From assembly GCF_029633865.1 (NCBI RefSeq), contig NC_079222.1, positions 32,426,830-32,490,829 of the forward strand: a stretch of 64,000 bases of DNA, given 5' to 3'. Below are positions 41,093-47,639 of the stretch, one piece after another. Positions within the stretch are counted from its first letter, which is position 1; each line of letters starts with the position of its first letter. The notes beneath the pieces were generated by a model. The model did not search any database, was not told the DNA's origin, and saw only the letters and a program-made list of their open reading frames with translations. The DNA is from Lampris incognitus (Eukaryota; Chordata; Actinopteri; Lampriformes; Lampridae). The position numbers and the translations under genes were made by a program.

Positions 41093-41985
41093 ACCACCCA
41101 GTGCCTGTCTTAACTCCTCCCTGAACTCCACACAACAGTCTTCCTTCTTCAACTTCCACCATTTGATCTTCGGCTCTGCCTTCACTTGCTTCCTCTTCTT
41201 GGTCTCCAAAGTCATCCAACAGACCAACATCCGATGCTGCCTACCCTGTCCCCGCCTTGCAGTTTCCAAGCCCTTTCAGATCGCGCCTTTTGCATGTTAT
41301 AGTCCACCTGTGTGCACTATCCTCCACTCTTGTACATCACCATGTATTCCTCCCTCTTCTCGAAATATGTATTCACCACAGCTATTTCCATCCTTTTCGC
41401 AAAATCCACCACCATCTGTCCTTCCACATTTCTCTCCTTGACACCATACCTGTCCATCACCTCCTCATCACCTCTTTTCCCTTCACCAACATGCCCATTG
41501 AAGTCCACTCCAATCACCATTCTCTCCTCCTTGGATACACTCTCCACCACTTCATTCAACTCACTCCAGTATTCTTCTTTCTCTTCCATCTCACACCCAA
41601 CTTGCAGGACATATGCGCTGATAACATTCATCAATACGCCTTCATTTCCAGCTTCATACTCATCACTCTGTCTGACACTCTCTTCACCTCCAGTACATTC
41701 TTGACATACTCTTCCTTCACAATTACCCCTACCCCATTTCTCCTCCCATTCGCACCATGATAGAAGAGTTTGAACCCACCTCCGATGCTCCTGGCCTTAC
41801 TCCCCTTCCACCTGGTCTCTTGCACATACAGTAAACCTACCTTTCTTCTTTCCATCATATCAGCCAGCTCTCTCCGTGTGCCAGTCATAGTGCCAACATT
41901 CAAAGTTGGCACTATGACTGCCTCTGGACATGCCTTCCCCCTCTCCTTCTCCTTCACCCAACAGTAGCATAGTTGTCGAGAGGCA
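41093..41985 (-). mobile_element. RTE-clade LINE, 5' half (endonuclease), minus strand
   Basis: Minus-strand blocks: VPTLNVGTMTGTRRELADMM, then RSIGGGFKLFYHGANGRRNG (endonuclease N-terminal region, 41999-41631), then VIGVDFNGHVGEGKRGDEEV, DFAKRMEIAVVNTYF (41634-41317), then the linker EPKIKWWKLKKEDCCVEF to LRQALGG (about 41098). It is cut off there: a 5' piece without its 3' end, the reverse of normal LINE truncation. Its own 5' UTR continues on the far side of the 5.4-kb insertion, at 47405-47530. Confidence 0.8.
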
Positions 41986-42088
41986 CCCAACTGCAACAAG
42001 ATGGCGCATGGATATCCAATCCATACCGGAAGTTGTTCTTCTTCGTCTATATTACAGTCCCGAACTGCTCCGCCATTTTACATCCAAT
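41986..42088 (+). repeat. Left terminal inverted repeat
   Basis: Matches the complement of 47302-47400. Differences include C/T at the sixth base of the ATGGCGC box and a 3-base indel in the TCTATATTACAG block. Confidence 0.8.
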
Positions 42089-42206
42089 CTACACCGGAAG
42101 TCACAGCGGAAGTAGTATTATTCGTGTGTATTATTCGCCGAATAGAAAGAAAGAAGAAGGAAAAAGACGAACACGAAGAATACCCGCACGAGTATGAGAA
42201 AGAACG
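41991..42206 (+). promoter_or_regulatory. TATA-less promoter and first non-coding exon in the inverted repeat
   Basis: The left repeat and the following 30 bases contain a YY1-type site (CAAGATGGCGC at 41996) and ETS-type cores (CCGGAAGT at about 42026 and 42094, GCGGAAGTAG at about 42106). These are the marks of housekeeping vertebrate promoters. The exon ends AGAACG|GTAAGG with the donor at 42207. ETS and YY1 sites also lie in the right repeat in mirror orientation. Confidence 0.55.
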
Positions 42207-42738
42207 GTAAGGGAATTAGTTTTTTAATTATTAGAATTAGAAAACTATATTGTCATTGTACATTGTACAACGTTATCTAAACACGAGGGCATAATTGGTG
42301 CTAACTTAACGTTAGCTGCTCAAGGCCTGCTGTGCTCCCTTTTAGCAATGTCTGTGTAACGTTAAAGAGTGTTATGTCGGTCAGATACTATTACTGCTCT
42401 CGCTTGATGTGTTGTTTAATTTAGATGTGTAATTTGCTGCGGGGTTAGTATGTGTTCATCTGCTTTTTGGTGTGTTGGGGTGTAAAACATCTTTGCACAC
42501 ACTCACTTCTATTAGCTGGTATTAACCGGGTCAGATAAATAACCTATAGCTCCGGGTGTCTGCAAAAATACATTTGTATTATGTTTTATTACTGCATCAG
42601 TGCAGTAAATACACATGCACATGTGGATATATAAAGACTAGTGCCTCCTCCACCACGAGTCCTTTCGATTGTAAAGATATGGATGATGTTCAGTATGTTT
42701 TCCAGATATCAATGTTGATTGACTTCTCCTTTTTACAG

Positions 42739-45700
42739 ATGCACCCCTCTATTTTGTTTGAAGATGCCAGTCTGGGGCACGTAACCCTTGCATCAGCAGA
42801 GTTTGGGTGTCCTCTCTGCCCCAAATTTTTAACCAAAAATGAGAGCGTGATCCAGAGACACCTAAACAACCACACAGAAAATGCAGTGCATTTCCATGGT
42901 ATGTTGATGAGACGTATCTGTTGGAGATCATATACTAATACATGTAATAGTAATGTTTAAGGATATTTGTGTTTTTGCATGTATAAGATTGTCATATTTA
43001 AGCATTGTTAAAATTGAGTTGCACTGTTTGAGGTCTGTTGATAAGATGTTGCACCTGTTGAAATCGTCATAACAGTTTCAATTAAGGAAAAAAAACAATC
43101 GTATAAGTTATTGTTTATAGAATGTAAAGTAATTTTTTGTTTCTCAGTTATGACATTAAGGTTTTTAAGACAAATGTCTCTCCCTTTACAGAAAAAAAAT
43201 CTGCAAATGCAACATGCCTTGCCGTGACAAAGGTCATTTTCATTGTCCTTTTTGTGACACGACTATAATCCGGGAAGACTTTGTATCACCACATGTGAGT
43301 GACTGTTTTAAAAGATGTGTTGTGGTGGTGCCACCTCATCATCAGTCCTCACCACCTCATCATCAGTCCCCACCACCTCATCATCAGTCCTCACCACCTC
43401 ATCATCAGTCCTCACCGTCATCATCTGAAAACTTAATTGCGCAGTTACTGGAACATTCTTATGCACTCGCCCCTTCAGCTACAACCACAGAGGAAGCAGT
43501 CACTCAAGAACTTTCATCTTCCCGTGTGACTTGCCCTCACTGCAACCTTGTACTATACAAAAGGAATTTGACATTACACATTAAAAGAAAACACAGTCAA
43601 CAAACAGATATCTCGGCCAAATCACATCTTAAAAGCACATGTGTTGACCAAAATAATGGTGTTTATGCTGTCTGGAAGACCGCAAAGGGTTTCGGTGTCC
43701 CGGTGCATGTGCAGAGCAAAACGTGGGGCCGGCAACATGTGTCAAAATGCGAGATGGAGGACTGTCGGCAGTATCATTTACTAGCTCAAAGGAGTGGCCT
43801 CTCCCACAGCTTGTGCCAACACATTCGTTCTGTTGATTACTGTGGCCCCACTGGCAGCGAGGAACCACTGCAACACCAGGTTCTGTCTGAAATGGTGCAA
43901 AACAAGTTCTTTGGAGAGTCTAAGATGGAATTATGCAAAAAGAGACAAAAGGAAGCTGAGGAAGTTCATGTCCCATTATGTGTGTTGGTGGAACTTGGTG
44001 GTGTGCAAAATAAAATTTGCCTCTCCATCTATGAGCCATTATTGCACCACTACAGCACTTTGGGCCGAGTCATGGTCAGTTATAATGTAAAAAACAACAC
44101 CTGGCATTGCCCCTGTGCAAAGGCCCGTAGATCTTGTCCCCATAAAAACATAGCAAAGTGGCACCTTTTTCAAACACGCAAAGAACTTTTCATAACTGCA
44201 CCTCAGACCACAACCACACCACCAACATCACCAGTGACAACTCACCCTGTCAGTCAACCCCCAACTTCAGGGATGGCGAGAACTGTGAGATATGTTTACG
44301 AAAACAAAAAATACCCGCCACTCTCCCTGAAGAGGCCACAGCTCGAAAAGCTTACCCTAAGGAGTTGCTGCCATCGGAAAAAACATGCAAGCTGTGTCCA
44401 GGAAATCCTGAATTGGAGGAGGCCAAGCTAATCACCCCAAAAGCCAGAGTAGTTGGCATGGAAGGTGTAATAGAAAGTAAGTTAAATACATCTTGAGATT
44501 TATAACATACAGCTAATTTCATGCCCTAATGTTTGTATCTATGTCCATTACAGACATCTCAACTTACAATAGAAGGTGCACCAAATGCCAAATGGTGTAC
44601 CGATACCAGGAGTGGACAGATGGTCTGAATAATTTCAATGACCACGTCATCCTCACGCTGCAACTTTGTCTGTATTTGAGGCACAATCTCCAGGTGTGTG
44701 TGAAGTAATAGTTAATTCCTCATTAGCTCCTCAGTAACTACTCTAATTTTGTGTACCTTATTGTAAAGTGTTGGCATTATTTCGTGTAGGAAATATAAAT
44801 TTTGTAGGCATTTACTGCAGTACATTTTCTGGTACAATGATAGCAGGGATTGCTCTTACTAATTGTTACTGATACTTTTCTGGGTATTCGTATCATTCCT
44901 GATATTTTCCTGTTATTCTTTTGTATTTAATATAGAATCATGTGTCCGTGTCTCGAGTCATCACCTCTCTTGAGACTTTGTGGAAGATGAAGTTTCCAGC
45001 CACTGACTTAATTTTTCAAGGATACTGCCAATTCGAGGCACTTTGCAACACAGAGTACAAATACTCTTGTGTAAATTGTGGCTTCTACCCTCCTGTGGTG
45101 ATTATGGACCTCCACAGAAAATGAGTTTTCAATCTTGAGAGTATGTCTCCCTTTAGTTTCCATTTATATATTTATCTTGTAAAATATTTAATTGACATAA
45201 CATTTATTCACAATAGTATCATTCATTAAAGGGTAAAATTTACTGTTGTGTTTGGCAATTTCATTTAGTGAACTGGAACAACCACATACTGACTTTCATG
45301 GTGAGCACGACATGCCGGCATTCTGGGAATCGGTTCATCTGCACATGATCAGCCGAGGATTTTGTAAGTGCGAGTCTGTCTAGATTATAAAAATCCAGCA
45401 AGTTTCATCGAAGTTGGTGTGTGCTCCTCAGAATTAACAGTATTTTAATGTCTATGTTTTCCATGAAGTCTCCTCACAGAACCCATTTGTTGTTAAACCA
45501 ACATATGACAACTGGGCACCTTGGATTGGAGGGGAGACTAGGAAAAGCAGTACTGTCCTAAACACAGAGTTTGAAAAGGTGCCACTGCAGAGGTCCTCTG
45601 GTGAACATCAGCTAGGTGATATAACAGAGGACTGCCTCGCTGATGAGCTGCAAAAACAGAAGGTACAGTCACCCATGATCTTGTTTAGTTTGTTCTTATT

Positions 45701-46894
45701 TTTAATTAAATACATTTGCAAATGACAATTTAATGTCATTGTATATGAGATGCATTTATCATTATTCATCTGAAATGCAACATTACAATGTAAGGTATAT
45801 GTTTTTATTTTTATGTACTCTTGCCACAACCAAGGGAAAACACTCACAATGAGTTAAACTTATTTTTAAAGACAAATAAATGAGCTGACAGCCAAAGGAA
45901 TTTCCATTTTTGGATGAATAAAGTAATCAGATCGCCACAGAGTGATACATTTAATTGACTCAAGATATTATGGTGTAGGTATCCACCATTCGAAAGCTGT
46001 GCAAATCCTGCAACGTGGACACAAAGGGGTTCCGTGGGGACCTTATTAACTGGCTGCGGGAGGAGATGAAGACCAGGCAGACCTATGACAAGGTCTTTCA
46101 GTCAATTTGGGGGGCCTCTGGTGAGTGTAGAAATGTAAAATTATTACAATAATTACATAAAATAAAGGTGGAAGTTAGACTAAATATTTTGTATTCTCAG
46201 AGGTGGATGGTCCGTCATTACGTGCCCCCATGGAGTTGTTTACAGTATTAAGTTCAACCTCAGAGCAGAAAGCCCCAGGGATTTTGCAGACCTCCTACTG
46301 TCATAGAAGCATTTACCTAATGTTTGTGTTTACGACTTTGCACTCGGATTGGTGGCCCATGCTAATTTGAGAGTTACAGACAACCCTCCATTCCAGCCGT
46401 TTGAGGGAAGACTTGCTGACCCAACAAATGACAATGTTGAGGCTGCTGCTCATGGCAAACCCAAAGTGCATCTCCCGTGGTTGTTTGAGAAACTTGAACA
46501 TCAAGATTCAAATGGCCATCCTGTTACAGGCTCAAGCAAACACTATGTCCTGTATGACAAATTTCATCAGGCAAATACAAAAGACCCACAGGATGTACCA
46601 AGAAGGATACACATTGTTCCAGAACTTCAGGCAGCTTTCAACAGTCAGGTTGCAGAGCAACTCTTTGCTTGTCTGCGAAAAAATTACTTTTTGAACAACA
46701 TGGGGCCTTCTGCTCACATCTTCCTGATGCGCCACATCCTTGAACACAGAAACAACCTTCAAAATGACAAACTGGTGAAACGTCTGTTAAGAAGAGGTCT
46801 ACTTCTTCAACAGCTGCACAATATTACCCTGTCAGACTTGGGCCAAGTGATACTAGGTTCATGTCAAACTTTTAATCTTACACAGGAACATTAA
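42739..46894 (+). pseudogene. HMGXB3-like / KDZ-transposase-like gene, multi-exon, with frame lesions
   Basis: Exons by splice signals and protein continuity: 42739-42898 (zinc finger, FGCPLCPKFL...HLNNH), 43192-44476, 44554-44693, 44936-45140, 45269-45363, 45469-45662, 45979-46120, 46201-46894. Exon 43192 on holds two more zinc-finger-like units (CPFCDTTI...HVSDC; CPHCNLVLYKRNLTLHIKRK), a tandem HHQSSPP tract (43337-43420) and a CxC4/SWIM-like cluster (WHCPCAKARRSCPHKNIAKW). Later exons add CxxC pairs (RRCTKCQMVYRYQEWTDGLN; YSCVNCGFYPPVVIMDLH). The last exon carries a KDZ-like core with YDFA, FEGRL and FNSQVAEQLFACLRK. Lesions: apparent one-base losses in A-runs at 43192-43199 and about 44306, a TGA at 45122, a shift at the 45140 donor or 45269 acceptor, a frameshift near 46220 and a TAG near 46304. 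Family assignment is from recognisable blocks. I cannot tell transposase from host-derived gene by sequence alone. Confidence 0.75.
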
Positions 46895-47262
46895 TTATTT
46901 GACATGAAATTGTTTGACAATTTCATAATTTTGTTTTGTTTTTGTATTGTGTCTTTCTAAGTATATCCTGCAGTTAAGTGGTAATAACAGTGTAGATAAT
47001 GCAGTGTGTATTATGTGTGTATTTGTATAAGTATGTGTGCATAAATATATATTTATATATATATTATTTGTATTTTAAAAAAGTACTACACTGCACAGCT
47101 GATGTCAGATGATTGTATTTTGCACACTTGAGTTGAAGATGATCAGAAAAATGGATAGCTCCTCTCATCCCTGAAGCACAGTAGAGCATTATTATTTATT
47201 TATTTTGGATAATATATCTTAGCAATTGTTGATTGCTTCAATGTTTGTAAATGCATTCCTCA

Positions 47263-47268
47263 AATAAA
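47263..47268 (+). terminator. Polyadenylation signal of the KDZ-like gene
   Basis: AATAAA in CAAATAAAGAATATAAAAAA, about 370 bases after the last stop and about 35 bases before the right inverted repeat. Transcription would end inside the element. Confidence 0.6.
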
Positions 47269-47301
47269 GAATATAAAAAAGACGGATTGACATTGGATGT
47301 A

Positions 47302-47400
47302 AAATGGCGGAGCAGTTCGGGACTGTAATAAAATAGACGAAGAAGAACAACTTCCGGTATGGATTGGATATCCATGCACCATCTTGTTGCAGTTGAGTGC
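47302..47400 (-). repeat. Right terminal inverted repeat
   Basis: Mirror copy of 41986-42088. It begins ATGTAAAATGGCGGAGCAGT on the plus strand and ends near TGCAGTTGAGTGC. Confidence 0.8.
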
Positions 47401-47404
47401 TCTT

Positions 47405-47560
47405 GGGAGATTTCACCGGCACCTTGCTGGTTAACAGTACCGGTGGCAGTCGTTGGTAGCCCTGGGCCTCGACCGATCCGGTATGGAAATCTCATTTATG
47501 GTCTGCATATTTGATTTGGCAAAGATTTTACACCGGATACCCTTCCTGATATAACCCTCT
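47405..47560 (-). mobile_element. 5' UTR remainder of the split RTE LINE
   Basis: In complement this matches the start of the RTE copy at 15388-15485 block by block (AAATATG.AGA.CATAAAT, ATTTCCATACCGGATC, CCGGTACTGTT..CCAGCA.GGTGC). It then stops at the right inverted repeat. It is the far side of the insertion described at 41986-47400. Confidence 0.7.
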
Positions 47561-47639
47561 CCATTTATCCGGGCTTGGGAGCGGCCCTAAGAATGCACTG
47601 GCTTGTGCATCCTCAATGGCTGTGTTTTTTTTCCTGTTT

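Follow-up and report, generated by a model that had tools for sequence, protein, structure and literature searches.

The window, a 64,000-nucleotide stretch of the Lampris incognitus genome, carries at 41978-47405 an element of 5,428 bp, whose outer ends we set by comparison with other copies (Table 1). Imperfect inverted repeats of about 110 bp lie at its two ends, with an outer pair of arms (41983-42054 and 47329-47400; 72 nt, 96%) and an inner pair (42032-42088 and 47292-47348; 57 nt, 89%). When the two ends are aligned, the right one is longer by one base. A previous sequence-only reading of this DNA had described inverted repeats of about 100 bp at both ends, and these are real and long, their outer limits now standing at 41978 and 47405. 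Between the repeats we predict a gene whose non-coding leader precedes eight coding exons, with exon borders that we fitted to the sequence alone. All seven introns separating coding exons begin with GT and end with AG. The spliced gene of eight coding exons proposed in that reading had been correctly parsed, and the AATAAA that it placed just inside the right repeat is there. Splice phases agree at five of the seven junctions, the mismatches falling between coding exons 1 and 2 and between coding exons 4 and 5.

Table 1. Coordinates of the features in and around the element, and of the other subfamily copies in the genome.
Feature	Position	Strand	Remarks
RTE LINE part left of insertion	41631..41969	-	minus strand; taken by us to be the endonuclease start
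Left flank TAGTTGTC	41970..41977	.	possible decayed copy of RTE target
Left terminal inverted repeat	41978..42088	+	outer end starts GAGAGGC
Non-coding leader exon	41978..42206	+	ends at donor gtaag; 5' bound nominal
Coding exon 1	42739..42898	+	MHPS..., C2H2-like finger, E 0.019 (below cut-off)
Coding exon 2	43192..44476	+	zinc-finger-like motifs, 21-bp tandem repeat, SWIM-like CxC..CxH, CxC4 start
Coding exon 3	44554..44693	+	CxC4 centre
Coding exon 4	44936..45140	+	end of CxC4 match; ...VVIMDLHRK
Coding exon 5	45269..45363	+	
Coding exon 6	45469..45662	+	SAP-like segment begins
Coding exon 7	45979..46120	+	SAP-like segment, E 0.0025 and E 0.0019, both below cut-off
Coding exon 8	46203..46894	+	conserved core: C.HG, YDFA, H/D cluster, QvAEQLF
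AATAAA polyadenylation signal	47263..47268	+	23 bases before inner end of right repeat
Right terminal inverted repeat	47292..47405	-	outer end finishes CTCTTG
Right flank GGAGATTTC	47406..47414	.	possible decayed second target copy
Same kind of RTE LINE, continued right of insertion	47415..47600	-	
C3 copy (7.4 kb)	C3:112.26-112.27 Mb		7,373 bp between ends; lacks window 44731-46958, has extra inserts
C12 copy	C12:39.98 Mb		both ends absent
C24 copy	C24:12.77 Mb		5' part only
C2 derivative	C2:92.95 Mb		152 bp; TIR-only
Second C3 copy	C3:5.45 Mb		one end, rearranged

The gene matches the Pfam CxC4 family (PF18717; E 9.8e-11), its 42.1 bits exceeding the cut-off of 26.9. This match supports two of the splice junctions because it crosses both of them, though it extends only about a dozen residues past the second. 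Of the zinc fingers and CxC4/SWIM-like cluster named in the earlier reading, CxC4 is above the Pfam cut-off, the SWIM-like motif of coding exon 2 is a call made by eye, and the C2H2-like finger of coding exon 1 stays below its cut-off. The tandem repeat of coding exon 2 (43331-43414) encodes PPHHQSS, and the 7.4-kb copy on C3 is 63 bp, i.e. three units, shorter. Within the core of coding exon 8, the D of YDFA is conserved in 17 of 21 letters and the E of QxAEQLF in 18 of 19 (22 aligned members, including the window and the C12 copy). By eye, the D of MDLH in coding exon 4 is a candidate for the first catalytic Asp; similar VVMDLHKK and VVMIDLHKR are found at loci L027 and L049. No Pfam family matched the core, even at E values as high as 1, and the fold in its single-sequence structure model (mean pLDDT 38.1) was unusable. 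Searching PDB sequences with the core alignment returned three matches, all to ribosomal eL6 (E 0.57-0.68), which we took as chance.

At least six loci of this subfamily are present in the genome, the window (on C15) included, and three of them keep both ends: the window, the 7.4-kb copy on C3 and the 152-bp derivative on C2. Exact 8-bp target-site duplications flank two of these three, GATTTCTT at the C3 copy and AAGATTTC at the C2 derivative, the window copy being the third. Because the terminal bases had been set with the flanks in view, we tested 81 offsets at the C3 and C2 copies: 8 bp was the longest match in both, at an identical offset. Matches of 8 bp or more occurred in 4 of 3000 random position pairs of the window. 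Moreover, the interior of the window copy recurs in the C3 and C24 copies, where it adjoins the same ends. Window 41978-47405 is thus very probably a cut-and-paste DNA transposon of the TIR type, now dead, and the exact duplications at the same termini in the C3 and C2 copies speak for such a transposon and not for a host gene. The mobile, spliced, TIR-bounded unit suggested from the sequence alone is now backed by additional copies whose ends agree with it, and by duplications at two loci. A single copy or variable ends had been proposed as signs of a host gene; in this genome we found several copies, and their ends agree.

We nevertheless weighed the possibility of a host gene, or pseudogene, lying beside unrelated inverted repeats. 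Eight spliced coding exons and a polyadenylation signal would fit it, as would the location of some related copies, in segmental duplications or in a cluster on C14. Comparison with the C3 copy can be read in both directions. Coding exon 1 is 98.8% identical (158/160) vs 95.2% (277/291) for the intron between coding exons 1 and 2, as a host gene would have it; coding exon 2 stands at 97.0% (1180/1217 aligned bases, 76 gap columns), and its changes show no coding bias. Over 43193-44270 (360 codons, gapped codons unscored) they number 12, 9 and 10 at the first, second and third codon positions; 21 of the changed codons are replacing and 10 silent. This looks like the pattern expected of unselected decay, although the counts are low and coding exon 1 has been better preserved. 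A host gene would also leave unexplained why the same repeats flank other loci with exact 8-bp duplications, and why the same interior lies next to the same ends in the C3 and C24 copies. Shared termini, duplications and unbiased changes in coding exon 2 led us to rule out this highly improbable explanation.

The transposon sits inside another repeat. The sequence-only reading had taken its flanks for the halves of one RTE LINE, and the element does split such a LINE: the junction is uninterrupted, with no insert, in 11 of 11 other RTE copies (the copies extracted, which were the best among 40 listed out of 2248 first-look candidates). Our empty-site evidence consists of these 11 paralogous copies of this genome, all of which read GTAGCATAGTTTCCACCGGCACC or near it. 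The flanks of the window copy itself, compared at 81 offsets, show no target-site duplication as long as 5 bp. It is possible that one existed and has since decayed, since both flanks resemble the TAGTTTCC part of the RTE target. Some alignments of the window flanks gave a larger overlap, which we discarded as inflated by a chance GGCACCC. The motif GATTT is present in both exact duplications and in the right flank of the window, and its recurrence at three sites may be a hint of target preference.

The window copy is dead and can no longer make the full protein, because it carries two in-frame stops (TGA at 45122-45124 in coding exon 4 and TAG at 46304-46306 in coding exon 8), a break of the frame within coding exon 2, at about 44257 to 44287, and mismatched splice phases at two of the seven junctions. 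This broken state had been missed in the earlier reading. All six subfamily loci found are broken or partial, and hence no competent copy was seen. Along with the missing duplication at the window copy and a core that has neither a Pfam match nor a usable fold, this weighs against the transposon reading.

A wider family surrounds this subfamily. The core exon gave 35 matches in the genome, merged into 30 places, among them the window and the C12 copy; protein identity at the remaining 28 is mostly 40-56%, with one short extra match at 30%. Many of these copies could be sorted into branches by DNA comparison, and we left unused the branch order of a tree of 22 core pieces, in which deep nodes were weak. 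Searching with 183 residues of coding exon 2 gave 113 matches, including a branch about 71% identical at the DNA level. Its copy on C16, the only one of the branch with the 5' end read, shows by local alignment a similar sub-terminal 30 bp (a score reached by 0 of 500 block shuffles). The outer end of the C16 copy also resembles that of the window copy by eye, and its counterpart of coding exon 1 has the same start, encoding MHPSI...CSLCPKF. Ends of the C16 type have at least 42 matches (40 of 141 first-look candidates scored). Facing pairs of them were seen at C18:44984034-44984331, spanning 298 bp, and at C3:64664778-64665015, spanning 238 bp, which suggests small TIR-only derivatives of a second branch.

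Other copies appear to have multiplied differently. Among core-exon copies on C18/C30, L049 and L050 are 99.2% identical over 4.7 kb, and L050 and L051 99.8% over 9.9 kb; with surrounding stretches this similar, the three were probably multiplied by segmental duplication, not transposition. A scan of 35 loci for a TIR motif (L052 belonging to the subfamily of the window) found none, most loci having too little flank and the motif being insensitive enough to miss also the known left end of the C3 copy. The inverted repeats of L044 and L047, considered as element ends, were rejected as what is by eye a common dispersed repeat. On C14 (47.52-47.69 Mb), a stretch of about 170 kb holds about nine copies of a related zinc-cluster exon, and several of them have long open frames; at one locus of this cluster, L072, a CxC4 exon is followed by long frames on the opposite strand, reverse-transcriptase-like by eye.

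The spliced gene product would be the transposase of the element. Its zinc-finger-like, SWIM-like and CxC4 clusters may bind the repeat ends of about 110 bp, or chromatin, while a DDE-type core, with the D of MDLH, the D of YDFA and the E of QxAEQLF as candidate residues, would cut both strands. The transposase would then insert the element at target sites with an 8-bp stagger, and would also have mobilised the 152-bp derivative in trans. The most likely mechanism is thus a DDE-type cut-and-paste transposase recognising the long ends through its zinc clusters. Its ends, duplications and dispersal are observed, whereas we infer the role of the gene product, the catalytic residues and the movement of small derivatives in trans.

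The unit had been labelled KDZ-type from its sequence. What holds of this label is the CxC4 cluster, whereas the core has no PF18758 match and its comparisons with KDZ copies were mostly negative. In our view the element represents a lineage of transposons that combines CxC4 with SWIM-like and SAP-like modules and is probably related to the KDZ group. We lean somewhat toward its being a true member of the Kyakuja-Dileera-Zisupton (KDZ) superfamily whose core has diverged beyond what the Pfam model recognises. Besides the KDZ-associated CxC4 cluster, this is favoured by a weak CxC5 match (E 0.0055) overlapping that of CxC4, by a C.HG...D arrangement that by eye resembles KDZ copies of the same genome, and by the length of the duplications: PMC12730594 gives 8 bp for Zisupton, as here, and 7 bp for Kyakuja. 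Yet PF18758 found no match in the core pieces, in 8 members of alignment A1 or in a 484-residue joined translation, although it does recognise KDZ copies of this genome (59 bits; 61 bits, E 1.7e-16). An hhalign comparison with a KDZ profile scored 15.4 (3 of 30 column shuffles scored higher), with profiles so shallow that the result is weak either way. Pairwise, one of eight pairs with KDZ copies stands out (2/1000 shuffles), and the scores of the other seven were reached by 89 to 867 of 1000. PF18758 has 33 KDZ matches elsewhere in the genome. A cluster of true KDZ matches at C5:62.04-62.40 Mb, many with open frames, is distinct from the family described here.

Set against known systems, the element shares with Zisupton/KDZ transposons of fish and fungi its nature as a DNA transposon, the 8-bp duplication, the cysteine clusters and the presence in fish (PMC12730594 and PMC12062965), but differs in a core that PF18758 does not match. 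Platyfish Zisupton is described with CxC7 in PMC12062965, vs CxC4 in the window gene. About 8-bp duplications are also given for the hAT and P superfamilies in PMC3706591. No hAT or P domain, however, appeared in Pfam scans of the window-gene pieces. The presence of TIRs is a further likeness, hAT and P elements having them too.

This transposon may plausibly be kin to HMGXB3, a gene of vertebrates. Iyer et al. are said to have described HMGXB3 in 2014 as KDZ-derived, with KDZ-associated cysteine clusters including CxC4. The likeness would lie in this cluster, scanned here in the window gene only; the window element differs in being multi-copy and TIR-bounded and in showing no HMG box in the scanned pieces of its gene. 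That the element is an HMGXB3-type transposon, whose lineage gave origin to the host gene, is a tentative proposal that we hold with some reserve. The missing HMG box counts against it, and so do the PDGFR-like loci (C1:25.27, C3:80.37 and C11:60.9 Mb), the neighbourhood in which synteny would place HMGXB3: 0 of 113 coding-exon-2 matches and 0 of 35 core matches fall there. We find it rather unlikely that the element belongs to a separate lineage that stands beside KDZ and is the source of HMGXB3, a lineage with an eight-exon gene, 8-bp duplications and its own core surrounded by CxC4, SWIM-like and SAP-like modules, which in this fish diversified into several branches with TIR-only derivatives. 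In the titles and starts of abstracts of the open-access papers listed, no description of a CxC4/HMGXB3-type transposon was apparent.

Because of its introns, automatic annotation could take this family for host genes. Even with no link to HMGXB3, the element provides defined termini for a spliced, zinc-cluster-rich family of fish transposons. If its lineage were the source of HMGXB3, the domestication of a vertebrate gene would become readable from relatives that died recently and whose ends and target duplications are defined.
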